Shown here piece after piece: positions 2,262-29,272 of a stretch of DNA of 36,244 nucleotides; within the stretch, counting starts at the first letter, position 1; every line of letters begins with the position of its first letter. The stretch is from an uncultured Clostridia bacterium (GTDB lineage: Bacteria; Bacillota; Clostridia; Oscillospirales; Ruminococcaceae). A model generated the notes under the pieces. That model saw only the letters and a list, made by a program, of their open reading frames with translations. It made no database searches and was not told the DNA's origin. The DNA lies in the NCBI GenBank assembly GCA_945876755.1, contig CAMCPM010000018.1, positions 1 through 36,244 of the forward strand, given 5' to 3'. Position numbers and translations under genes: made by a program.

Positions 2262-2891
2262 TTACTTTCTCTTCTTAGCAGCGATAGCAGCAGCACCAGC
2301 AACAGCCATTACGGAAACCATAACAGCAACAGGAGCATTGCCTGTAGCAGGAGCGTCTGTTGTTGCTTCAACAGCAGGAGCCTCTGCTGTTTCAGCAGGA
2401 GCAGCATCTTCAGCAGCACCGCCAAGACCGGAAACTGTGAAGGTTACCTTGAGGTCAGTTGTGATAGGAGTAGCCTGGTTTACGCCGGGGTTATCCTTTG
2501 TTGTACCGTAAGTATTGAAGATTTCGATTCTGTAGTTGCCCTTTTCCTCAACGTCGCCGTAAACGATCTTTGAAGCGTCGAAGGAAAGCTCAGCGCCGTC
2601 AACCTCGATCTTGTCGAGAACAGCTGTAGCCTCGGGAGAACCTGCGAACATACCCTCGATGTCGATTACAAATACGCCGAAATCAGCAGCGCCTGCAACG
2701 AGAGTAGATTCAATTGTGTACTGACCGTCACCTGTAACGGTTGTGTTAGCTTCCCAGTCCTGGAAAGTCCATGCTGTATCAGCAAAGCCGAGCTTAGCTG
2801 TGTATTCCTCAGCAGCAAAAGCGTTGATAGCCATTGTAGAAACAGCAACTGCAGCAGCTGCAACAGCAGCAATGATCTTCTTGAGCTTCAT
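2262..2891 (-). CDS. Secreted surface protein with APATGN anchor tail
   Basis: A 209-residue exported protein. Residues 1-27 are a signal peptide (MKLKK, Ala/Val core, NAFA). Residues 28-165 form a beta-rich domain with aromatic patches (AWTFQDWEANTTVTG, DFGVFVIDIEG, NYRIEIFNTYG), reminiscent of small carbohydrate-binding modules; this is a visual impression only. A short Ala/Pro/Glu linker precedes DAPATGN, a hydrophobic helix and KKRK. The N-terminally longer frame (to 2948) is unlikely because GGAGG lies eight bases before ATG 2891. The anchor is almost identical to that of the gene at 1349-2083 (one residue differs), while the globular domains are unrelated by eye. It is a single-gene transcription unit. 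Confidence 0.85.
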   Translation of the reverse strand: MKLKKIIAAVAAAAVAVSTMAINAFAAEEYTAKLGFADTAWTFQDWEANTTVTGDGQYTIESTLVAGAADFGVFVIDIEGMFAGSPEATAVLDKIEVDGAELSFDASKIVYGDVEEKGNYRIEIFNTYGTTKDNPGVNQATPITTDLKVTFTVSGLGGAAEDAAPAETAEAPAVEATTDAPATGNAPVAVMVSVMAVAGAAAIAAKKRK

Positions 2892-2952
2892 AAAAAATTC
2901 CTCCAAAAATTCATTTTCTCGTTTTCCGACTTGGAAATAAGAATGCACACTT

Positions 2953-2980
2953 ATTATACAATAGAGATTTCAAAAAATCT
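2953..2980 (-). promoter_or_regulatory. Probable promoter of the gene at 2262-2891, with a dyad at the -35 position
   Basis: A TATAAT hexamer (2953-2958) lies about 60 bases before the start codon. There is no good -35 hexamer. Instead a small perfect dyad, AGATTT (2965-2970) and AAATCT (2975-2980), covers the spacer and -35 area. Dependence on an activator or repression at this dyad is possible but only inferred. Confidence 0.6.
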
Positions 2981-3033
2981 ATATTCATTCTGCAACAAAT
3001 AATAACGATTACATTGTGCATTTTTAGCAAAAT

Positions 3034-3063
3034 AAAAGAGTCCGCCCAAAAAGGCGGACTCTT
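3034..3063 (-). terminator. Intrinsic terminator of the fourth surface-protein gene
   Basis: A perfect 11-base GC-rich stem (3036-3046 with 3053-3063, loop CAAAAA) is followed on the minus strand by TTTTATTTT. It lies just past the stop of the gene at 3082-3390. Confidence 0.88.
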
Positions 3064-3081
3064 AGTCAAGCAATAAATAAA

Positions 3082-3390
3082 TTACTTAGCCTTCTTTGCA
3101 ACAACTGCAGCAGCAGCAAGAGCAACAGGGATTACTGCGAGAGCGATAGGAGAGTTACCTGTTGTAGGGTTAGTAGCCTCAGGAACAGCAGGAGTCTCGT
3201 CAGCAGGCTCGTCAGCAGGCTCATCAGCGGGCTCATCAGCAGGATCTTCTGTTGTGATCTCTGTTTCAGCAGGATTCTCATCAAGAGTATCCTCATCACC
3301 TGTAGTACCTGCAGCGGAAACAGTCATAGCGAGCATAGCGGAAGCCATAGCGCAAGCAGCGATAGCAGCAAGAATCTTCTTAAGTTTCAT
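3082..3390 (-). CDS. Very small secreted NPxTG-anchored stalk protein
   Basis: A 102-residue exported protein that is nearly all signal peptide, acidic linker and anchor. Residues 1-27 are a signal peptide (MKLKK, then an Ala-rich core ending in VSAA). The middle is a Thr/Glu/Asp/Pro-rich stretch containing ADEP repeats and no recognisable domain. The tail is NPTTGN, a hydrophobic segment and KKAK, the clearest NPxTG-type sorting signal in the window. ATG at 3390 has GGAGG eight bases upstream; an upstream in-frame ATG at 3405 overlaps the ribosome binding site and is unlikely. With no globular domain, it may act as a charged surface spacer. Its function is unknown. Confidence 0.83.
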   Translation of the reverse strand: MKLKKILAAIAACAMASAMLAMTVSAAGTTGDEDTLDENPAETEITTEDPADEPADEPADEPADETPAVPEATNPTTGNSPIALAVIPVALAAAAVVAKKAK

Positions 3391-3443
3391 TGTAATTTCC
3401 TCCATTCAGATATTTATATATAGTTTATCTTAACTATGCTGTA

Positions 3444-3472
3444 ATTATAACACAATCGGTTGTTAAATCCAA
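3444..3472 (-). promoter_or_regulatory. Sigma-A promoter of the gene at 3082-3390
   Basis: Minus strand: TTGGAT (3467-3472), a 17-base spacer, TATAAT (3444-3449). The start codon is about 54 bases downstream. Confidence 0.78.
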
Positions 3473-3815
3473 TTGCCAATGTAACAGTTTTTCAAACTAT
3501 TTAGAAATATTATTTGCGCATTATCCACAAAACCCAAGAAATTTTTCACTGATTAATGAAATTTTGGTTACAGTTTTTGTTACTTTTTTCATTAGGAAAT
3601 CGCCGGCAGATTCCGTGCCGTCCCAAACCGCCTGCCGTATAATTTGACACTAAGTCGAAACGCTCCTGCAAAATCCTGGATTTCTTACTCTTTTTTTGCG
3701 TATACCGATTCATAAAGCCGGGAGTTATGTCATAATATAAAAAGTGCTGAATATTTATTCGGACGGAAATACTTTACACAAATATAAAAAAAGAAGAAAG
3801 GACGGCCGTTAATAT
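3473..3815. other. Intergenic region upstream of the XRE gene
   Basis: No gene is visible in this 343-base stretch. It must hold the plus-strand promoter of the gene at 3816, but no -35/-10 pair convinced me. It contains one sequence identical to the DnaA-box consensus (TTATCCACA, 3521-3529) and an inverted repeat with CGGCAG and CTGCCG arms near 3604-3637. Confidence 0.5.
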
Positions 3816-4052
3816 ATGAATATCAGAATTCGTGAAATGCGTGAAAACAGCCACTTATATCAGCGTCAGCTTGCAGAATATCTCCACTGTACTCAGCAAA
3901 CCTACTCCAGATATGAAACAGGCGAGCTTCAGCCGTCGCTTCTCGTAATGGAGCGCCTTGCTGATTTTTACGACACCAGTGTAGATTTCCTTATGGGACT
4001 GACCGACGAAAAAAAGCCTCATAAGCGCAGCCACAAGCGTATGGACCTGTAA
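3816..4052 (+). CDS. Small XRE-family transcriptional regulator
   Basis: A 78-residue DNA-binding protein made of one Cro/C1-type helix-turn-helix (about residues 4-60) and a basic tail (KKPHKRSHKRMDL). The motif fits the family: IREMRENSHLYQRQLAEYL for helices 1-2, QQTYSRYETGELQPS for the recognition region, then LADFYDTSVDFLMG. Length is typical of stand-alone single-domain members. The AAAGGA element sits 13 bases before the ATG, a little far, but the MNIRIREMRE start is the usual one. It is the only convincing plus-strand gene here and converges on rplQ across a shared terminator. Its target is unknown; the divergent small surface-protein gene at 3082-3390 is a candidate by position only. 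Confidence 0.88.
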   Translation: MNIRIREMRENSHLYQRQLAEYLHCTQQTYSRYETGELQPSLLVMERLADFYDTSVDFLMGLTDEKKPHKRSHKRMDL

Positions 4053-20277: not shown

Positions 20278-20509
20278 TACGTCCAAACACAAAGCTTACC
20301 TTTGGGAAGACACAGGACTCCCCACGGTTTAAGCACACACAGTGTCCGATATCACAGCCGCCCGGCTCGAAGCCGAACATACTCCACGGAAATTCCCTTA
20401 CAAACCGTAAGCAACCTTCCGCTTCCTCGCAAAAACATATATAAAGCGCGGCGAAATCAGCCGCCGCACTAACAGTTAAATATATAACTGCCGCAGTCAC
20501 GCAAGTAAT

Positions 20510-20672: not shown

Positions 20673-21896
20673 TCAGCTTTCATACTCGATAATAAACGTC
20701 AGTATGCGGTACTGCGCATAATATCCTGTCCAGCTCAGCTTAATGTTCTCACCGCATTCCGACCTGACCTTCTCAATTACCGGAGTAAACAGCTCCTCAT
20801 TTTCTAAGTCTGCCTCCGAAGCCAGATACAGGTCCGTAGTATCAAACTTCACCATCGCACCGGAGCTGCGGCTTTTCACCGCACTTATAATAGCATTTTC
20901 CGAAGCAGTAAGAAGTTCTTCTCTGCTGCTTACGTCAGCACCCTCGCGCACGAAGTAATTCTCCTCAATACCGTAAGCCTTAGGCGCTTCGGCAGGATAA
21001 TTCCATATCTTGTGATTATTTTCAATAACGGAATCCGTCACCATAAAATACTGATAAAGAATAACATCGGGATAAAGCTTGTGCAGCTCGTCATCCGACT
21101 TGTCCCAGGTCACATCCACATGATACCAGTTTCCGCCCAGCTTGACCATGTTCCATGTGTGAGGTACATAAGTCTCACCTGTAACAATAACATTTTCAAT
21201 GCCGACAAGATTGCACAGATAAGAAAACGCCTTTGTGTAGCCCTCGCACAGCGCCTTTTTACGGACAAGCGCACCATAGACCGTGTCCGCGTAGTCATAG
21301 GAAGCGTCAGTCTCACAGTTGAGAATAAGATAATCATGAAAAAATTTCAGCTTTTCATAATCGTCCATCTCCGGAGTAAGCTGCGCAATTATCTCCTTGG
21401 CAGCCTTTTCGGCAGCCATATTCATGCTGCTTATCTCATCTGCCGAAAGACGGTAAGTAAAAAGCACCTCAAACTCCTGCGCCGAACCGTTATAATCAAG
21501 ACTCCTTCCCGAAACATGGGGATAAGCAAGCTGCTCAAGGCGTATAGTCTCAAGTATCTTCTGATATACCGCCGAATCCACCAGCAGGGGAGCCTTTGAC
21601 TTCAGTCTGCCCAGACTTTCCTTTACAGAATCATATACCTCACGCTCTTCATCGCTGAGTTCATATCTGCTGTAATAATCCGTCACCATTCCTTCGGGAA
21701 TATAGAAATCCGCATAATCGTAGCTGTTTTTTTCGGGAACATCAAGATTTTCCTCCGAAATACACACTCCGTTTGAAAAGACCCTGTATTCGCCGTCAGT
21801 ACCGTCTTTAACGCCGGAGCTGTCCGAACCGTTACGGGAGCAGCCTGTCAGCAGAAGCGCCGCCATAACCGCCGCCATAAAACCGCGCCTATGCAA
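20673..21896 (-). CDS. Transglutaminase-like lipoprotein 1
   Basis: A probable exported lipoprotein of 407 residues with a transglutaminase-core (papain-like) domain. The signal is short and ends in LLLTGC, lipidated Cys at residue 19. The triad is Cys217 (CEGYTKAF), His246 (HTWN) and Asp261 (VDVTW), so it is probably catalytic: either protein crosslinking or, as in many bacterial members, peptide hydrolysis. Upstream of the core is the YELSDEEREVYD module shared with its four paralogues; downstream is the shared ENYFVREG region. A longer frame starts at GTG 21929, but a promoter predicted at 21921-21949 would begin transcription downstream of it, and AAGGGGG lies eight bases before TTG 21896, so TTG is preferred. 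It is the last gene of the array and the most diverged. Confidence 0.85.
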   Translation of the reverse strand: MHRRGFMAAVMAALLLTGCSRNGSDSSGVKDGTDGEYRVFSNGVCISEENLDVPEKNSYDYADFYIPEGMVTDYYSRYELSDEEREVYDSVKESLGRLKSKAPLLVDSAVYQKILETIRLEQLAYPHVSGRSLDYNGSAQEFEVLFTYRLSADEISSMNMAAEKAAKEIIAQLTPEMDDYEKLKFFHDYLILNCETDASYDYADTVYGALVRKKALCEGYTKAFSYLCNLVGIENVIVTGETYVPHTWNMVKLGGNWYHVDVTWDKSDDELHKLYPDVILYQYFMVTDSVIENNHKIWNYPAEAPKAYGIEENYFVREGADVSSREELLTASENAIISAVKSRSSGAMVKFDTTDLYLASEADLENEELFTPVIEKVRSECGENIKLSWTGYYAQYRILTFIIEYES

Positions 21897-21920
21897 TTTC
21901 CATACCCCCTTCCGGAGAAC

Positions 21921-21949
21921 ATTATACACTGTTAATCAATATACTTCAA
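21921..21949 (-). promoter_or_regulatory. Internal promoter before the last transglutaminase-like gene
   Basis: Minus strand: TTGAAG (21944-21949), a 17-base spacer, TATAAT (21921-21926). It overlaps the 3' end of the preceding gene, with the predicted transcription start only about 18 bases before the TTG start at 21896. It suggests this gene can be expressed separately. Confidence 0.6.
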
Positions 21950-23503
21950 AAACAGCTTTATAACCATCGAGGTATCGTCCTGACTGTAATTTATCGCATT
22001 GCAGTCATATTTGTTTGCCGCCTCGGAAAGAGTCTCCTCAAAAATACCGATAGCCTGCTTTTCGGCAGCCCCGAAAAGCCTTGCCGTAGCGTCCTCATAA
22101 AGCTCTCTGTTAGAGCATTTGACCTGAATGACCATTTCCTTGTTCTGAGAGCATTTGATTATCTGATTTTTAATCATCTGTCTTACATCGTCCCAGCTGT
22201 CAGCAACAAGACCGTTTTTAACATAGTAGCTGCAATCCTCCGAAATAGCCTTCGGATAGGAATATATCTGGGGATAAACCGTCCTTGTAGAAGAAAGCAT
22301 TTCGTCGGGAACACAGAAATAATCATATCTTACATAGCTTCCCACAACCGAATCGGTGACTGCATAGGTAACATCAATATTATACCACTGACCGTCTATT
22401 TTCACCATATTCCACATATGTGGCTGACCGTCAGCGTCGCCGGTAACGGTTATCGTCTCAATGCCGACCTTGTCACACAGATAAGAAAACGCCTTAGAAT
22501 ATCCGCCGCAGATAGCCCTTTTGTCCGCAAAAACACCGTAAATGTCACGGCAGTTTTTGGCGCTTTCATCGTAAACGACATTTTCCGCAAGATAGTCATA
22601 AAAAAGCTTGACCTTGTCGTAATCCGTCATTTCGGGAGTTATCATGCCGATTATCTTGTCAGTCTCGGCGTCGATCTCCTTCTGCATCTTCAAGGTTTCC
22701 GCCTCGCTGTACTTATAAAAGATGACAGCCGAAGCGATATGTTTTGTCGCCGAATTAACAGCATACTGCATTTTCGTATCAATATAGAAAAGAGAGTGTT
22801 CATCGTTGTATATCTGCTGATAAACCTCGCAGTAATCCTCCGCTTTGACCTCCATAAGAGTCGAGATAGGCACATTGGTATTGTAATGTTCAACGGCAGT
22901 TATTATTGCATCATAGATATAAAGCTGCTTTTCGTTGAGCTGATTATAGCTGTAAGGCCGTTCTATCTCTCTTTCACCGGAAAGCTTGACGACCTCATAT
23001 TCCGGCTCTTCCTCATCGTCAACGGTACTGTCCGATTCCTTGCTCAGAACGCTTTCCGACTTTTTATCCGTACCGGAAGAAGAGCTGTCCGTACTTTTAT
23101 CCGAAGAGGAAGAAGCCGTGACTGTCGTTGTCTCTGATACCGAAGCCGACGGTTCAAGAGCCGTAGTGCTTGTAAATTCCGATATAGGAACATTGGGAAC
23201 GTCCGGAACGGTAGAAACTTCCGATTCCGCAGACTGATCCGAACTCATCGTAGTCGTGGTGGCAAGCTCGGGAGTAGTCTCCGAAGCAGCCGTGCGCTTG
23301 GTTTTCTCGGTAGTAACAATAGTTACGGGAGCAGTGCTTTCCGTTGTTTCCTCCGTCTCATAAGAAACGGTAGGGGAGGAAGCACCGGTCGCAGGCATCG
23401 GCAGACCTTCGTCAGGAAGCCGTCCGTCGTCTCTGCACCCCGATGTAACAGCCGCAGTGAAAAGGATTGCCGCCGTAAAAATTATCTGCTTGAATTTATT
23501 CAT
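21932..23503 (-). CDS. Transglutaminase-like lipoprotein 2 with long Ser/Thr linker
   Basis: A 523-residue probable lipoprotein. The signal ends in VTSGC, lipidated Cys at residue 23. Residues 30-165 are a Ser/Thr/Glu-rich low-complexity linker that would extend the enzyme away from the membrane. The common YSYNQLNEKQLYIYDAI module starts near residue 184. The transglutaminase core has Cys332 (CGGYSKAF), His362 (HMWN) and Asp377 (IDVTY; Tyr replaces the usual Trp). The post-core SYYVKNGL element is present. ATG 23503 is chosen over TTG 23512 because GGAG lies 11 bases before the ATG but only two before the TTG. Substrate is unknown. Confidence 0.88.
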   Translation of the reverse strand: MNKFKQIIFTAAILFTAAVTSGCRDDGRLPDEGLPMPATGASSPTVSYETEETTESTAPVTIVTTEKTKRTAASETTPELATTTTMSSDQSAESEVSTVPDVPNVPISEFTSTTALEPSASVSETTTVTASSSSDKSTDSSSSGTDKKSESVLSKESDSTVDDEEEPEYEVVKLSGEREIERPYSYNQLNEKQLYIYDAIITAVEHYNTNVPISTLMEVKAEDYCEVYQQIYNDEHSLFYIDTKMQYAVNSATKHIASAVIFYKYSEAETLKMQKEIDAETDKIIGMITPEMTDYDKVKLFYDYLAENVVYDESAKNCRDIYGVFADKRAICGGYSKAFSYLCDKVGIETITVTGDADGQPHMWNMVKIDGQWYNIDVTYAVTDSVVGSYVRYDYFCVPDEMLSSTRTVYPQIYSYPKAISEDCSYYVKNGLVADSWDDVRQMIKNQIIKCSQNKEMVIQVKCSNRELYEDATARLFGAAEKQAIGIFEETLSEAANKYDCNAINYSQDDTSMVIKLFLKYID

Positions 23504-23538
23504 TATAAGCAATTCTCCTTCTGCGCCTAAACAGAGCG

Positions 23539-24690
23539 TTATTCATCATCATATTCGTATATCAGCGAGATATGCACAATATGCATATCATCGTTATTAT
23601 GCTTGTACGCCGAGCGTATTTTCGTTCCGTATTTGCCGTTGATGTCCTCGATTATCTTTTTCATTTCGCCGCTGTCGAAAAGTCTTGCCATAGCGGCAAA
23701 ATAAGCGTCCTCATCAGAAAAGCGTATCTCAGCCTCACGCCGACCCGAAAGCCCTGCGGATTTTATCTGTTCCGCAATAGCCTCAGTACCCTCGGCAGGA
23801 CTGTCAAAAAGCAACCCATTTGCGGCAAAATAATTAAGCTTGTCCGAATCGCAAACGGGGACTCCGCTGTAAAGCGGATCTGTAAAATGTGTCTTGCCCT
23901 CGATCTCGCTGTCCATTACCAGCAGATAATCGTGACGCACAAAATCGGGATTGTTCTGCTTTATAATAGGGTCATCCCAGGTACAGTCAGCATTGTACCA
24001 TTTTCCGTCAAGCATTATCTTGTTCCATGCATGGGTATCACCTGCGGAATTTGTTCCGCAGACGGTGTAATTCGGTATCCCTGCCTTGTCGCAGAGCAGC
24101 GACATAGCCGCCGCATAGCCCTCGCACTGACCGTATCCCTTTACAAGCACCCCGTAAGCGGAGCTGACGTGTTCTTTTTCGGTTGAAAACGTACAGCCCG
24201 TAACAATCTTATCGTGAAAGAATACCGCCTTTTCAAAATCGTCTGCGTCATCTGGGAGTTCGCCGATTATAGTCGAAGCGGCAAGATCCAGCTCAGCCCG
24301 TTTGACTTCGGCGTCCTCTCTTTCATAAAGATAGTTCAGCCTAAGCACGGTTATCTCCTTGTCGGGAGCGTAAAAAAGGTTGCTCAGCCAGAAATATTTT
24401 CTTTCCTGAGTATACACAAGACTGTATATCCGCCTTGCGTCCTCCCGTGATACAGGAGTGTCAAAGGTAACAAAATCCTCGAAATTCACAACAGCGTCCC
24501 GAAGCTTGTCATAAAGCGCCTTGTCTGGATCCGAAAGCGCCTCGTATACGGGAGAGACAAAATTCTCAAACTGCGGATTTCCGGGAGCTATCACGGAAAC
24601 CTCCGTATCAGCAGGTTCTTCGGAAACTCTCGCACAAGCCGACGCCCCGACAGCAGTACAAAGGAGCAATACCGTAAAAAGCCTTTTCAT
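23539..24690 (-). CDS. Transglutaminase-like lipoprotein 3
   Basis: A 383-residue probable lipoprotein, the most compact of the five. The signal MKRLFTVLLLCTAVGASAC places the lipidated Cys at residue 19 (SAC is a permissive lipobox). There is almost no linker. The shared YEALSDPDKALYDKLRDAV module is followed by the transglutaminase core with Cys189 (CEGYAAAM), His220 (HAWN) and Asp235 (ADCTWDD). The post-core NYFAANGLLFD element is kept. The ribosome binding site is weak, 11 bases after the preceding gene, so translational coupling is likely. Extra cysteines (160s and 211) distinguish it from its neighbours. Confidence 0.88.
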   Translation of the reverse strand: MKRLFTVLLLCTAVGASACARVSEEPADTEVSVIAPGNPQFENFVSPVYEALSDPDKALYDKLRDAVVNFEDFVTFDTPVSREDARRIYSLVYTQERKYFWLSNLFYAPDKEITVLRLNYLYEREDAEVKRAELDLAASTIIGELPDDADDFEKAVFFHDKIVTGCTFSTEKEHVSSAYGVLVKGYGQCEGYAAAMSLLCDKAGIPNYTVCGTNSAGDTHAWNKIMLDGKWYNADCTWDDPIIKQNNPDFVRHDYLLVMDSEIEGKTHFTDPLYSGVPVCDSDKLNYFAANGLLFDSPAEGTEAIAEQIKSAGLSGRREAEIRFSDEDAYFAAMARLFDSGEMKKIIEDINGKYGTKIRSAYKHNNDDMHIVHISLIYEYDDE

Positions 24691-24701
24691 AAAATGACCG
24701 C

Positions 24702-26060
24702 TTATTCGTAAATTACGTTAAATTCAATAAGCATAAGACTTTCGCTGCATTCGTCGCTTACGCCCTTAACGCCGGCAAAGCTCTTTGCATAAGTGTTGTA
24801 ATCCATTCTTGCGGCATAGACCTTGTCATATACATCCTTAGAAGAAACCATTATCTGAGCAGCTCTTGTGCCGTCCTTTGCAGCGCTCTCTATTTCAGCT
24901 CTGATAGCCTTGTCTGCGGACTCAAAATCGCTGTAAACAAGACCGTTCTTCACGAAGTAGTTCTGAGCCGTATCGGTGCAGGCAGGAGGAGTGAAATACT
25001 TGATATACTTTCCGCTTGAAAGCTTCTTTTCGCTGACGTGCATATGAGTAATGTTGTGTATCTGATTGTCTGGCACAAGGAAGAAATTATAGCGAATGTA
25101 CTTGTAGTTGGGGGTTTTGAGAATAGGGTCGTCCCAGGTAGCGTCAAGATTGTACCATGCGCCGTCGACATTTACAACATTCCACGCATGGGACTGACCG
25201 GAAGTTGTTTCGCCGGTTACGACCATGCTTGTAATGCCTGCCTTGTCGCAAAGATACTGCATAGCCTTGGCATAACCTGCGCACTGGATATTTCCCTGCG
25301 CCTCGCCGCTGCCGAAAGCATTATAAATAGTAGCGTTATAGTTGGTTATCTCGTCCTTCAGCTCAAAAGTAGAGTTCAGAACAAGATAATCGTGAAAGAC
25401 CTTGAGCTTTTCAAAGGTAGTAGCTTTGCCGTTAGCCTCGGCAACAAGCTTGTCCGCAACCGCGTCAATAGACTTCTGCATCTCATTGATAGCGTCAGCG
25501 TCCTTGGTAAGATAGAAAAGCTTTCCGACCTTGAGCTTTGCGTTCATATAGAAAAGCTGAGGCTCCTGATTATAAACAAGACCGTATATCTTTGCCCATT
25601 CCTCAAGAGTATAAGCGTCCTCGTCGCATATTTTGTAGCGGAGTCCCTCAATACCTGCAACGATATCGTCATAAAGCTTCTTTTCCTCATCGGTAAGCGT
25701 GGAATAAGCATAGCGCTCACCGTTATTCTGGCTGATATTAAGCTGCGGAGGCGGAGTAGTTCCGGTCATTGCCGCCAGAAGCTCCTCCTCGCTGAGCGTC
25801 TGAGCAGGATCTATCGAAGTTGTTGCAGCAGGTTCTGTAAGAACATCGCCGTTTACGCCTGTAACAGCCTCTCCGTTGTCGTCAGTGACCACAAATGTTC
25901 CGTCGGCAGCAGCGTTTCCGCCGTCCTGACCGCCGATGACGTTTACAGAAGCCGTCGTACCCTCGGCTGAATCGCCTTCATTTTTTCCGCAGCCTGCCGC
26001 AAGCATAGATACTGCCGCAAGCATAGCCACAACAGAATAAAATTTTCTTGTTTTCTTCAT
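24702..26060 (-). CDS. Transglutaminase-like lipoprotein 4
   Basis: A 452-residue probable lipoprotein. The signal ends MLAAGC, lipidated Cys at residue 24. A Gly/Ala/Thr-rich linker spans about 25-105. The shared YAYSTLTDEEKKLYDDI module is followed by NQEPQLFYMN and then the transglutaminase core with Cys260 (CAGYAKAM), His291 (HAWN) and Asp306 (LDATWDD). The NYFVKNGLVYSD post-core element is a clear match to paralogue 2. ATG 26060 with AAAGGA ten bases upstream is preferred over ATG 26069, which is one base from the binding site. The 81-base gap after the preceding gene holds a GC-rich hairpin. Confidence 0.88.
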   Translation of the reverse strand: MKKTRKFYSVVAMLAAVSMLAAGCGKNEGDSAEGTTASVNVIGGQDGGNAAADGTFVVTDDNGEAVTGVNGDVLTEPAATTSIDPAQTLSEEELLAAMTGTTPPPQLNISQNNGERYAYSTLTDEEKKLYDDIVAGIEGLRYKICDEDAYTLEEWAKIYGLVYNQEPQLFYMNAKLKVGKLFYLTKDADAINEMQKSIDAVADKLVAEANGKATTFEKLKVFHDYLVLNSTFELKDEITNYNATIYNAFGSGEAQGNIQCAGYAKAMQYLCDKAGITSMVVTGETTSGQSHAWNVVNVDGAWYNLDATWDDPILKTPNYKYIRYNFFLVPDNQIHNITHMHVSEKKLSSGKYIKYFTPPACTDTAQNYFVKNGLVYSDFESADKAIRAEIESAAKDGTRAAQIMVSSKDVYDKVYAARMDYNTYAKSFAGVKGVSDECSESLMLIEFNVIYE

Positions 26061-26104
26061 AATAAACATATCCTTTCAAGGTATGGAGTTTGCCTGTATG
26101 CGCA

Positions 26105-26133
26105 GGGGCAGGGTGAAAAAATCTCCCCGCCCC
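26105..26133 (-). other. GC-rich intercistronic hairpin
   Basis: GGGGCAGGG (26105-26113) pairs with CCCCGCCCC (26125-26133) apart from one A/C mismatch. No T-run follows on the minus strand, so it is more likely an mRNA stability or processing element than a terminator. Confidence 0.5.
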
Positions 26134-26138
26134 GTTAA

Positions 26139-26167
26139 ATTTTATTTATATACTACGTCGTACTCAA
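26139..26167 (-). promoter_or_regulatory. Possible internal promoter before transglutaminase-like gene 4
   Basis: Minus strand: TTGAGT (26162-26167), a 17-base spacer, TAAAAT (26139-26144), overlapping the end of the preceding gene. The hexamers are only fair, so this is tentative. Confidence 0.35.
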
Positions 26168-27797
26168 CAACAAGGACATCCTCGGTAAGCGTTTTCTGAC
26201 GCTTGATCTCGGTTACATTGCTGCTCTTGCTCTTAGCATAATCCTGGAATATCTTCCAGTATTTCTTATCGGTAAGGGTCTCCCAGAGGTCATGATCAGT
26301 TACTCTGATATGAGCAACGTTCTTGCCCGACTCAATAGCAGCGTCAAGCTCTGCATACATAGCCGCAACAGCAGAGTCGAGGTCGCTGTATTCCTTATTG
26401 TACGCCTTGAAGTAATAGCAAGCTGTCTTTGTGCAGGCAGGAGGATTATAAAGCTTGATCCTTTCACCGGTAGACTTTCTTGTCATAGTGCTTACATTAA
26501 GGTGAGTATTCTTTATCATTTCGTCGTTAGCAAGGAAGAACAGATAACGCACATAGCTGCTCTTACCGTAGCTGATTATCGGGTCGCCCCAAGTAGAGTC
26601 GAGAATGTAGTAGCCGTTGTCGCAGTAAACCACGTTCCATGCATGAGTGCTGCCCTCGGTGTTGTTTCCGTTAACGACCATACACTCGATACCTGCAATG
26701 TCGCAGAGATAAAGAACAGTCTTTGCATAGCCCTGGCACTGAAGCTCGCCGCCATCGGTAAGACCATTGTAAATACCGCAGGTCTCAAAAGTACCCTGAA
26801 GGCTGAAGGTGTTGTGTGTGATAACCCAGTCGTAAATTACCTTGAGCTTGCTTACCGTACTGGAATAGCCGCCGACCTTAGCCATAACGTCCTTGACATT
26901 TGCGTCTATCTCAGCCTGAACAGCCTCCGCCTCATCGCGGGTAAGGTCAAATTCAAGATCTATCATGCCGCCCAGAGAAATAGGCACTGAAGGGGAGAGC
27001 CAGAAAAGCTGCGGCTCCTGATTAAATACGATACAGTAAACCTTGAATACATCGTTGGAAGTAAATCCTTTAGGTATCTCTACCTGAGTCTCAAAGTTCT
27101 CTGCAGCCTGAACAATGTCAGCATAAAGCTTCTGTTCGTCCTTTGTCAGCTGCTGATAGGGATATCTGTCCTTATAGCTCTTTTTATAGGATGAGCTGAT
27201 GGGCTTTGAAGAAGTAGTCTTGTTATCGTCGGGATCGCTTTCCTGCTTCTTTTTGGTAGTAGTTGCCTCCGTACCCTGAGAAGGCTTTTCATCGGTAACA
27301 TAATCCGAGTGGATAAAAGTACCGTCAGCCAGCTTGTAGTAACCGGTATCGGTAGCAGCAACAATGTTGATCTTAGTGCCTGCCTCATATTTCTTAACAG
27401 ACTCCGAACCAACGATAGCTTCCTTTCTGGAATAGCATGAAGTCTTTATGTAGAGAGTCTCGCTGATCTCGGTCTCGTTCCAGGACTTCTCCTTTGTAGT
27501 AACGGTAGCAGACTCAGTCTCGCTTGTCTCTGAAGGAGCAGTTGTCGTGCTTTCCTCAGTCTCAGAAACAGTCGTCTCTTCGGTGGTCTCCGACGTATCC
27601 TCAGTCTCCGACTCGGTAGTAACCTCAGGAACAGTCGTTTCCTCGGTAGCTTCGGTCGTCATCTGTGTAAGCGACACAGTTTCGGACGGAGTGCCTGCTT
27701 CGGGAAGACCTGCGGACTCCTCATCGGTTTTCTTACATCCCGCAAGCATTGAAGCCGCCATAAGAAATGCAAGAATAAGACTAATTTTCTTCTTCAT
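26142..27797 (-). CDS. Transglutaminase-like lipoprotein 5 with SH3-like domain
   Basis: A 551-residue probable lipoprotein, first of the five in transcription order. The signal ends SMLAGC, lipidated Cys at residue 21. Residues 30-105 are a Thr/Glu/Ser-rich linker. Residues about 110-168 resemble a bacterial SH3 domain (SETLYIKTSCYSRKEA, then TGYYKLADGTFIHSDYV), a fold that often binds cell-wall peptides. A second basic Ser/Lys linker leads to YPYQQLTKDEQKLYADIV. The transglutaminase core has Cys354 (CQGYAKTV), His385 (HAWN) and Asp400 (LDSTWGD). The start overlaps the end of the DUF21/CBS gene by 17 bases, with GGAG ten bases upstream, so it belongs to the same operon. The SH3-like part hints at peptidoglycan as the site of action. 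Confidence 0.88.
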   Translation of the reverse strand: MKKKISLILAFLMAASMLAGCKKTDEESAGLPEAGTPSETVSLTQMTTEATEETTVPEVTTESETEDTSETTEETTVSETEESTTTAPSETSETESATVTTKEKSWNETEISETLYIKTSCYSRKEAIVGSESVKKYEAGTKINIVAATDTGYYKLADGTFIHSDYVTDEKPSQGTEATTTKKKQESDPDDNKTTSSKPISSSYKKSYKDRYPYQQLTKDEQKLYADIVQAAENFETQVEIPKGFTSNDVFKVYCIVFNQEPQLFWLSPSVPISLGGMIDLEFDLTRDEAEAVQAEIDANVKDVMAKVGGYSSTVSKLKVIYDWVITHNTFSLQGTFETCGIYNGLTDGGELQCQGYAKTVLYLCDIAGIECMVVNGNNTEGSTHAWNVVYCDNGYYILDSTWGDPIISYGKSSYVRYLFFLANDEMIKNTHLNVSTMTRKSTGERIKLYNPPACTKTACYYFKAYNKEYSDLDSAVAAMYAELDAAIESGKNVAHIRVTDHDLWETLTDKKYWKIFQDYAKSKSSNVTEIKRQKTLTEDVLVVEYDVVYK

Positions 27798-29157
27798 TTT
27801 TCATGCTCTCCTTTGTTATATTTTCATTTGTATTTTTCTCAAGTATCTGCGCTTTGATCTTTGAAATACGCTTATCCTCTGTCACAAGAACGGTAAAAAG
27901 CACGTTTTCATATTCAATCGAAGGATTTTCATTTTCCTCCGGGATACGTCCCAGAAGCTCAACGATAAATCCGCTCATAGTGTCAAAACCGTTTTCTTCG
28001 GGAAGCTTTATGCCGAAAACGGGAAGTATCTCTTCCGGGTCAGCAGTTCCGTCAATAGTATAGGTATCGTCGGAAATTTTGATAAGCTCTTCTTCCTCTT
28101 CGTCATATTCATCCTGAATATTTCCCACGATCTCCTCAACGATATCCTCCATAGTCACCAGACCTGCCGTACCGCCGTATTCGTCGATGACAACAGCCAT
28201 CTGCATTTTCTCTGCCGTAAGCCGCTTGAACGCCTCTCCGCAGGAAACCGATTCGGGAAGATATATAGTATCTCTGACAAAGCTTTTGGCGCCGGCATTT
28301 TCAGCCGCCTCCGAACCCACAAGGCAAAGCAGGTCTTTTACGCAGATGATACCCGATATCCTGTCGATAGTTTCCTCATAAACGGGAATACGGGAAAAAC
28401 CGCTGCTTATCGCCGCATTGACCACCTCTGAAACATCAGCGGATATCTCTACCGCCACAATGTCGGTACGGTGAGTCATAATGTCCGAAACGGTAATATC
28501 GTCGAACTCGAACACATTGTTTATCATTTCGCGCTGAGATTCCTCAATAACGCCAGTTTCGTTGCCTGCGTCCACCATCATGAGGATCTCCTCCTCGGTG
28601 ACCACATCCTGCTCCGAAGAACCCTTGGCTCCGAACAGCGGAGCAAGCAGCTTCGTAAGCAGGGAAGAAAGCGCCGTCAGCGGAGTAAGCATAATAACAA
28701 GGTATTTAACGAACGGCGCACAGAAATAAGCAAACTTCTCGCTTTTCGCCGCCGGCAGCCTTTTGGGTATTCCCTCGCAGAAGACCGTCAGCACAAGCAC
28801 CGCAGCAAGCAATATTATGACCGCCGCAGCAGCATAAGCAAGCGCACCGCCGCCGTTATTTGTATTCACACCGAAGAGCCGAGCCAAAGCACCGCCCAAA
28901 GGCGCCGAATAGGAAAACAGAGCTATGTAAGAAGCCAGCACCGCAAAAAGAATACGGTTCACAGCAAAAGCGGTCATAAGCCTCGACGGCTTTTCGAGCA
29001 GCGCTGCAAGAACAGCAGCTTTTTTGCTTTTATCGGAGCTGTTTCTGACCTTTCGATCATCAATTTCGGTCACAGCGGTCTCGCAGACCGTGCAAAAGCC
29101 TTTATACAGTATCACCGCAAGAATAATAATACTTCCGGCAAACCCGTCAGATTCCAT
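27781..29157 (-). CDS. DUF21/CBS membrane protein of the CorC/HlyC type
   Basis: A 458-residue inner-membrane protein. The N-terminal DUF21 (CNNM-like) part, about residues 1-190, has an acidic cytoplasmic loop (TEIDDRKVRNSS) and several helices, with EGIPKRLPAAKSEKFAY between them. Two CBS domains follow (DIMTHRTDIVAVEISADVSE and TIYLPESVSCGEAFKRL, with VVIDEYGGTAGLVTMEDI), then the CorC/HlyC C-terminal domain. Family members are linked to magnesium/cobalt or sodium transport; which ion applies here cannot be told. ATG 29157 with AAGGAA upstream is preferred over the longer frame to 29193. It is the first gene of the transglutaminase-like operon. Confidence 0.93.
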   Translation of the reverse strand: MESDGFAGSIIILAVILYKGFCTVCETAVTEIDDRKVRNSSDKSKKAAVLAALLEKPSRLMTAFAVNRILFAVLASYIALFSYSAPLGGALARLFGVNTNNGGGALAYAAAAVIILLAAVLVLTVFCEGIPKRLPAAKSEKFAYFCAPFVKYLVIMLTPLTALSSLLTKLLAPLFGAKGSSEQDVVTEEEILMMVDAGNETGVIEESQREMINNVFEFDDITVSDIMTHRTDIVAVEISADVSEVVNAAISSGFSRIPVYEETIDRISGIICVKDLLCLVGSEAAENAGAKSFVRDTIYLPESVSCGEAFKRLTAEKMQMAVVIDEYGGTAGLVTMEDIVEEIVGNIQDEYDEEEEELIKISDDTYTIDGTADPEEILPVFGIKLPEENGFDTMSGFIVELLGRIPEENENPSIEYENVLFTVLVTEDKRISKIKAQILEKNTNENITKESMKNEEEN

Positions 29158-29243: not shown

Positions 29244-29272
29244 ATTATACAACAAAACCGTCAAAAAGTCAA
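29244..29272 (-). promoter_or_regulatory. Promoter of the CBS/transglutaminase-like operon
   Basis: Minus strand: TTGACT (29267-29272), a 17-base spacer, TATAAT (29244-29249), about 80 bases before the start codon at 29157. Near-consensus, so expression of the operon is probably substantial. Confidence 0.82.

Follow-up and report, generated by a model that had tools for sequence, protein, structure and literature searches.

In a stretch of 36,244 nucleotides from an uncultured member of the Ruminococcaceae (Clostridia; GCA_945876755.1, contig CAMCPM010000018.1, positions 1 to 36,244), hereafter the window, which corresponds to contig C18 in a genome of 2.34 Mb, a gene for a CNNM/CorB-type protein is followed by five consecutive genes for predicted lipoproteins with a transglutaminase (TG) fold, here termed T1 to T5. 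With a confidence somewhat short of even, we read this locus as a conserved envelope operon that combines five tethered thiol enzymes with a CNNM-derived nucleotide sensor, rather than with a Mg2+ exporter. The surface location, the chemistry, the loss of transport, the sensing and the direction of evolution in this proposal are inferred from sequence comparisons.

The five-gene array and its conservation

The first gene of the operon (27781..29157, minus strand) encodes a DUF21 membrane domain, a pair of CBS domains and a CorC_HlyC domain (Pfam PF01595, PF00571 and PF03471). It overlaps by 17 bases the gene for T1 (26142..27797; 551 residues), whose long Thr/Glu-rich linker holds an SH3-like segment. 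On the same strand follow T2 (24702..26069; 455 residues, medium linker), T3 (23539..24690; 383 residues, the shortest linker), T4 (21932..23512; 526 residues, a long Thr/Ser-rich linker and Tyr in place of the Trp after the catalytic Asp) and T5 (20673..21929; 418 residues, short linker), each an open reading frame with a match to PF01841 (Transglut_core), and the gaps from T1-T2 through T4-T5 measure 72, 11, 26 and 2 bases. Because of sequences resembling ribosome-binding sites, T4 more likely starts at the ATG at 23503 than at the end of its open reading frame at 23512, and T5 at the TTG at 21896 rather than at 21929.

All five proteins pass the curated PF01841 cut-off of 23 bits, with scores of 31.1, 32.1, 48.3, 50.5 and 43.3 bits for T1 to T5, and the Cys, His and Asp of the catalytic triad align in 5/5. 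They share a common unit of an N-terminal module, the core bearing the triad, a post-core element and a C-terminal module. The original prediction, made from the DNA letters and open reading frames of the region, had described five such lipoproteins behind a DUF21/CBS gene, the 17-base overlap, intact triads, a Tyr for Trp exchange in one protein and a three-part layout; coordinates, overlap, triads and the exchange (in T4) were all borne out, and the three parts were recovered with the C-terminal module following them. A family profile (A2) built from T1-T5 and 11 relatives aligns over nearly the whole catalytic unit with the solved chain 9crn_A (profile positions 91-414 of 443, chain positions 13-357 of 379, E 1.2e-43) and over the core with chain 4xz7 (E 2.6e-5), the latter a Streptococcus transglutaminase as cited in the available part of PMC10318531. 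Sequence homology to these two chains makes T1-T5 candidates for a papain-like fold.

A search across the genus returned matches in 21/21 genomes, while at E 1e-20 the family gave matches in 129 of 198 genomes with at least 90% completeness, and TG-core proteins of the T1-T5 type were found at the same threshold in 299 of the 395 genomes searched in the order. We compared 44 array loci; four others were dropped because each repeated a locus already included (L020 that of L035, L021 that of L044, L022 that of L026, and L048 the window). In 40 of the 44 the gene immediately upstream of the array encodes the CNNM protein, and the remaining four (L032, L034, L066 and L072) start at contig ends inside the array. 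The arrays span nine genus codes (g1, g2, g18, g57, g65, g66, g83, g90 and g92); five consecutive TG genes are present in 30 loci, 19 from the window's own genus and 11 from five other genera; 29 of the 30 also carry the CNNM gene on their contig, T1 of L034 is truncated at a contig end, and the arrays of g57, g65 and g90 have four TG genes or are cut. A lipobox-type pattern, the basis for calling these proteins lipoproteins, occurs in 147 of the 150 proteins of the five-gene arrays when a loose form is used (one miss being a cut protein) and in 134 under a stricter form. The triad is intact in 193 of 195 TG proteins from the array loci and one solo paralog, the other two being cut before the catalytic residues. 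The order of a CBS gene followed by the array is found across the own genus and other genera, a conservation that speaks against a chance arrangement; restriction to one strain with decaying triads elsewhere, which the original prediction had named as grounds for abandoning it, did not occur.

To these loci belongs the observation that one genome of the same genus (G001) has two copies of the CNNM-TG array, L023 on contig C5 and L024 on contig C97, one of them cut by the contig end, which may reflect duplication, strain mixture or contamination. The window's own genome further encodes a solo sixth relative of 404 residues away from the array (L045, open reading frame 2635-3849; G000:C10:14634-15848), with no CNNM gene beside it within the 6 kb retrieved. 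A phage or plasmid origin was considered and rejected: matches of T2 in 11 phage and 7 plasmid records are all below 60% identity and none covers 80%, with identities of 26-28% for the five phage matches shown and 25-33% for the plasmid records.

The individual members of the array appear to have been maintained separately. In an unrooted tree of 97 proteins from chosen loci, built by a quick method, T1-T5 group by position, with T1 and T2 joined by T3 on one side and T4 and T5 on the other. On this tree each position of the five-gene arrays requires 2-4 changes; shuffled labels require about 15, and none of 500 shuffles came as low, though near-copies also cluster. Within the genus, cores of one position share an identity of 0.65-0.78, versus 0.27-0.44 between the positions of one genome. 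The array positions thus look largely orthologous between genera, as a tree had been proposed to decide. Not every locus follows this pattern: genes one and two of L067 (g83) both group with T2 and lack the SH3-like motif, L071 has as its fourth gene a long branch that falls outside T4, separate duplications are seen in the four-gene arrays of g57 and g65, and T2 is missing from L062 (g90).

Tether length and active-site surroundings also follow position. The distance from the lipobox Cys to the Tyr of the LYD motif has medians of 210, 115, 42, 172 and 60 residues for T1 to T5 in the own genus, and of 204, 121, 44, 166 and 62 residues in the other genera; its spread is smallest in T3, with T1, T2 and T4 varying more in other genera (26 to 193 in T4). 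Gln precedes the catalytic Cys in 29/30 T1, 30/30 T2 and 27/30 T3 proteins, a mostly hydrophobic residue taking its place in T4 and T5, and Glu follows the Cys in 27/30 T3 and 30/30 T5 proteins. The residue after the His is Ala in T1 (29/30), T2 (30/30) and T3 (26/30), and Met in T4 (30/30) and T5 (27/30). Trp follows the Asp in 30/30 proteins each of T1, T2, T3 and T5; of the 30 T4 proteins, 20 have Tyr here, 4 have Trp and 6 another residue, and the DDP motif is absent from most T4 copies. The division of labor that the original prediction had suggested for the five enzymes is, on these comparisons, well supported, because orthologous positions come with their own active-site neighbors, triads and linker lengths, and such traits point to five functions maintained separately more than to redundancy.

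The SH3-like domain claimed for one protein fared less evenly. The segment (27282..27461, minus strand), a putative wall-binding element of T1, recurs as a motif in 27 of 30 T1 proteins, and a contig end truncates one of the three that lack it. Its Pfam matches are all weak and below threshold: the segment of the window gives DUF5776 as its best match (E 0.0032; 18 bits, cut-off 27), followed by PSA_CBD (E 0.078), and the T1 ortholog of L058 matches SH3_3 at E 0.065. The cut-off of no SH3-type Pfam family is reached, and a search of the PDB with a profile of the segment returned no useful chain.

Cation and nucleotide sites of the linked CNNM proteins

CNNM/CorB proteins transport Mg2+, and their Mg2+ ligands are Ser, Ser, Asn or Ser, and Glu, according to the available part of PMC8242095, from which we took both these ligands and the ATP contacts; sites are numbered as in TtCorB. 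Open reading frames shorter than 380 residues (six in the comparison of site strings, two of them contig-edge fragments) and near-identical sequences were left out of the counts. As canonical proteins we used the 30 best matches to the own genome's canonical CNNM paralog on contig C5, a choice that favors canonical residues, and these keep Ser26, Ser30, Asn76, Asn80 and Glu118 in 30/30. In contrast, position 76 is Arg or Lys in 48 of 50 distinct full-length TG-linked copies versus 0/30 canonical ones. Among the same 50 linked copies position 26 is Lys or Arg in 37, Ser is left at position 30 in 1 and Asn at position 80 in 1 (L064), and position 118 is Glu in 15 and Asp in 24; the CNNM of L236 is likewise TG-linked. 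In the window's CNNM protein (P0006, L136) Lys26, Thr30 and Arg76 replace Ser, Ser and Asn, a departure from the conserved Mg2+ ligand set that weakens the case for a transporter and leaves descent from one untouched. A profile alignment with MtCorB (7m1u) places the Arg of the TG-linked family on Ser71, a ligand position occupied by Asn in bacteria. The cation site of the TG-linked subfamily is thus charged, and it seems unable to pump.

The nucleotide site presents the opposite picture. The ATP contacts Thr207, Ser234, Arg235 and Asp316 are kept in 49/49 linked copies, Thr313 is Thr in 47 and Ser in 2, and Phe233 is Phe in 40 and Tyr in 5; Thr207 is less constant in the canonical copies (Thr in 15/30). 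Identity among the linked copies (n=49) is 0.33 in the membrane part versus 0.584 in the cytosolic part, compared with 0.475 versus 0.46 among the canonical copies (n=30). Four linked copies of 276-314 residues (L061, L077, L088 and L092, from g18, g55 and g47) lack DUF21 altogether, as judged from three-frame translations read by eye and from profile ranges, and keep the CBS and CorC domains; full-length linked CNNM proteins also occur in g18 and g47. Given the Lys and Arg in the Mg2+ cavity, the intact ATP site of the CBS pair and a membrane domain that is weakly conserved or absent, a sensor rather than a pump is suggested.

A simpler form of the same neighborhood exists in other genera; neither it nor the charged cation site had been noticed in the original prediction. 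Among 20 non-array regions, selected by hand from the best non-array results of the family search, 13 have a single TG gene with the CNNM gene immediately before it, and the triad is kept in 21/21 TG proteins of these regions. Order and class searches supplied 52 further relatives, 39 from outside the family (4 with less than 300 bases upstream) and 13 from inside it, two of the latter (L110 and L112) being the same places as L084 and L090; L099-L103 were left out of this count, lying within arrays or at the place of the linked L088. No CNNM gene precedes TG in any of the 39 from outside the family, of which 35 have 300 bases or more upstream, or in any of the 13 further relatives inside it, so that the family has 31 distinct non-array places, 13 of them linked. 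CNNM with one TG gene appears to be the older form, although the tree is unrooted, and the array would have arisen from it through tandem duplication before the array-bearing genera split.

Several side observations touch on these families. At L205 (G144:C42) a TG gene of the T1-T5 clade has no CNNM upstream, even though a second species with that genus code does carry one. Loci of genus code g33 (L106-L108, L111, L113, L119 and L127) carry two adjacent TG genes without an upstream CNNM, a separate tandem in the same family. A further class of CNNM proteins in the family (L191-L193, L196, L197, L201 and L202) has Asn26, Ala or Ser30, Ile or Val76 and Glu118, and no TG gene was seen downstream in these loci (L197 is cut).

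Alternative explanations, proposed mechanism and neighboring signals

A number of observations weigh against a sensor that no longer pumps and that is coupled to the enzymes. The window's CNNM protein retains Glu118, and the TtCorB substitutions Asn76Ala, Ser26Ala and Ser30Ala increased Mg2+ transport according to the available text of PMC8242095; with both in view, loss of transport is a tentative reading. The four linked copies without DUF21 may be replacements rather than deletions, since soluble CNNM-type proteins lacking DUF21 also occur elsewhere in the family, and a copy of this kind would be cytosolic and so could not contact the lipoproteins directly. Arg or Lys at position 76 also occurs in 5 of 20 other CNNM proteins whose genes have 900 bases or more of downstream sequence and are not followed by a TG gene (six with less than 900 bases downstream, five of them with Arg or Lys76, were not counted; L149, L154 and L157 lie at contig ends), and TG occurs without CNNM in 7 of the 20 non-array regions and at 11 further family loci. 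CNNM and TG are therefore not obligate partners.

It is distinctly unlikely, in our judgment, that the linked CNNM is still a transporter with a changed selectivity (for a cation, polyamine or anion), whose export the enzymes use or are activated by, for instance through an amine acyl acceptor. Transport of Mg2+ is the known activity of CNNM/CorB proteins (PMC8242095, in part), and P0006 retains Pro121 and Lys122 beside Glu118 and partly matches the NCBIfam model for PaeA (183 bits against a cut-off of 500), named as a polyamine exporter in the portion of PMC12421838 at hand; the lower conservation of the membrane domain relative to the cytosolic part, the positive charges at ligand positions and the linked copies without any membrane domain all speak against it. 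Alternatively, the enzymes might be surface proteases or deamidases that digest external proteins of diet, host or competitors, with the array widening their range and the CNNM gene a co-expressed neighbor. We consider this unlikely: while the papain-like superfamily includes proteases and deamidases (available part of PMC10318531), T2 gives a sub-threshold match to Gln_amidase and the active-site neighbors are diverse, the tethers kept by position and the fixed gene order would suit a fixed internal target and not a changing diet, and CNNM adjoins the arrays with a regularity that a casual neighbor would not show.

A further case, which we hold to be improbable, is that the neighborhood is inherited synteny alone and the array an ordinary expansion of paralogs. 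All linked cases were found in one family, and some TG genes of the family have no adjacent CNNM, as such a case would have it; however, within the stretches retrieved the S10 and L3 genes adjoin the array in the window only, whereas the CNNM-TG pairing persists, and Arg or Lys76 marks 48/50 linked versus 5/50 unlinked CNNM proteins, a contrast inflated by relatedness. Finally, some members, T4 above all, could be binding scaffolds with a relic triad instead of enzymes, for which the varying residue after the Asp and the DDP motif missing from most T4 copies could be cited; with the Cys, His and Asp intact in 30/30 T4 proteins of the five-gene arrays, we hold this to be highly improbable.

Returning to the preferred reading of tethered enzymes with a CNNM-derived sensor, a more explicit version, which we regard as doubtful, would have the transport-dead nucleotide sensor control five thiol transpeptidases or isopeptidases graded by wall depth, as a ruler-like system for the maturation of the surface, with components that have so far been given general family names only. 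In the preferred reading itself, the gene overlap and order suggest that CNNM and the TG enzymes would be produced together, and the lipobox-type patterns that the enzymes would be anchored to lipid, with T1 possibly also binding the wall through its SH3-like segment. Their triad points to thiol chemistry on amide, peptide or isopeptide bonds, which may take the form of the crosslinking or cleavage of surface proteins or wall peptides named in the original prediction. Given that each enzyme has its own triad, active-site surroundings and tether length, it most likely acts on a different envelope substrate or at a different wall depth, as the conservation of tethers and active sites would suggest. 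Judging from its residue patterns, the CNNM protein most likely senses Mg2+-ATP, or else a different adenine nucleotide, on the cytoplasmic side of the membrane, and in this way it would set the amount or activity of the TG enzymes.

A hairpin directly after T1 (26105..26133, minus strand), lacking a U-tract, could set a step in dose between CNNM-T1 and T2-T5. A strong fold between T1 and T2 (z of -2.8 or lower, from mononucleotide shuffles) is present in 24 of the 30 five-gene loci, with a differing sequence in other genera, and an alignment of 18 loci of the own genus shows two-sided changes in only 2 of 10 pairs. Two other identities for this hairpin were rejected, a dispersed repeat on account of the single pattern match in the own genome and an intrinsic terminator on account of the missing U-tract. 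Upstream of the CNNM gene lies a promoter-like site, TTGACT-17-TATAAT, matching at 11/12 positions (29244..29272, minus strand); this is weak evidence, as the region holds 27 such sites where shuffling would predict 15.5. Between T5 and rpsJ an ordinary S10-Clostridia ribosomal protein leader (Rfam RF03136) occupies 20355..20435 on the minus strand; we rejected a link of the array to the S10 ribosomal operon, S10 being a neighbor at the window's array only, within the stretches retrieved. Elsewhere in the own genome four sortase-type matches stand in a row (G000:C2:57534-62137), and no dockerin was found in it at E 0.001.

Comparison with known systems

The arrangement is real, widely conserved and composed of known kinds of protein, and it is undescribed as far as searches of an open-licence collection of papers show; these yielded no description of the operon and no paper naming 9crn, an absence that is weak evidence, and no assigned role was found for the TG-core proteins of the host lineage. 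An ordered, orthologous set of five offers a way to test whether one fold has been specialized by reach and active-site surroundings. Likewise, a CNNM subfamily that has seemingly lost the cation site and kept the ATP site is a natural experiment on the CBS/CorC part alone, in a protein family with disease-linked members in humans (PMC8242095, in the part available).

With PF01841 and papain-like thiol enzymes of known structure (9crn and 4xz7) the array proteins share the core, by homology, and the Cys-His-Asp triad; what distinguishes them from these enzymes is an ordered orthologous array of five predicted lipoproteins whose tethers are specific to each position and whose genes are linked to one for a CNNM protein. 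The MAG6410 lipoprotein (NF045980), a mycoplasma family, is likewise a TG-type lipoprotein, and the partial matches to it fall within positions 139-358 of 622; membership was rejected, as their scores of 52-94 bits compare with a cut-off of 450. The CNNM/CorB (CorC, HlyC) Mg2+ transporters, such as MtCorB (7m1u), have the DUF21-CBS-CorC_HlyC layout, the profile match and the ATP contacts in common with the TG-linked copies, which differ from them in the Arg or Lys at a Mg2+ ligand, the mostly lost Ser ligands and a membrane domain that is weakly conserved or absent. Secreted TG-type modules in a gut bacterium are likewise represented by the dockerin-linked modules of Ruminococcus flavefaciens FD-1 (available part of PMC2721979); those modules are described there as attached to the cellulosome, whereas the array enzymes are predicted to be lipoproteins.

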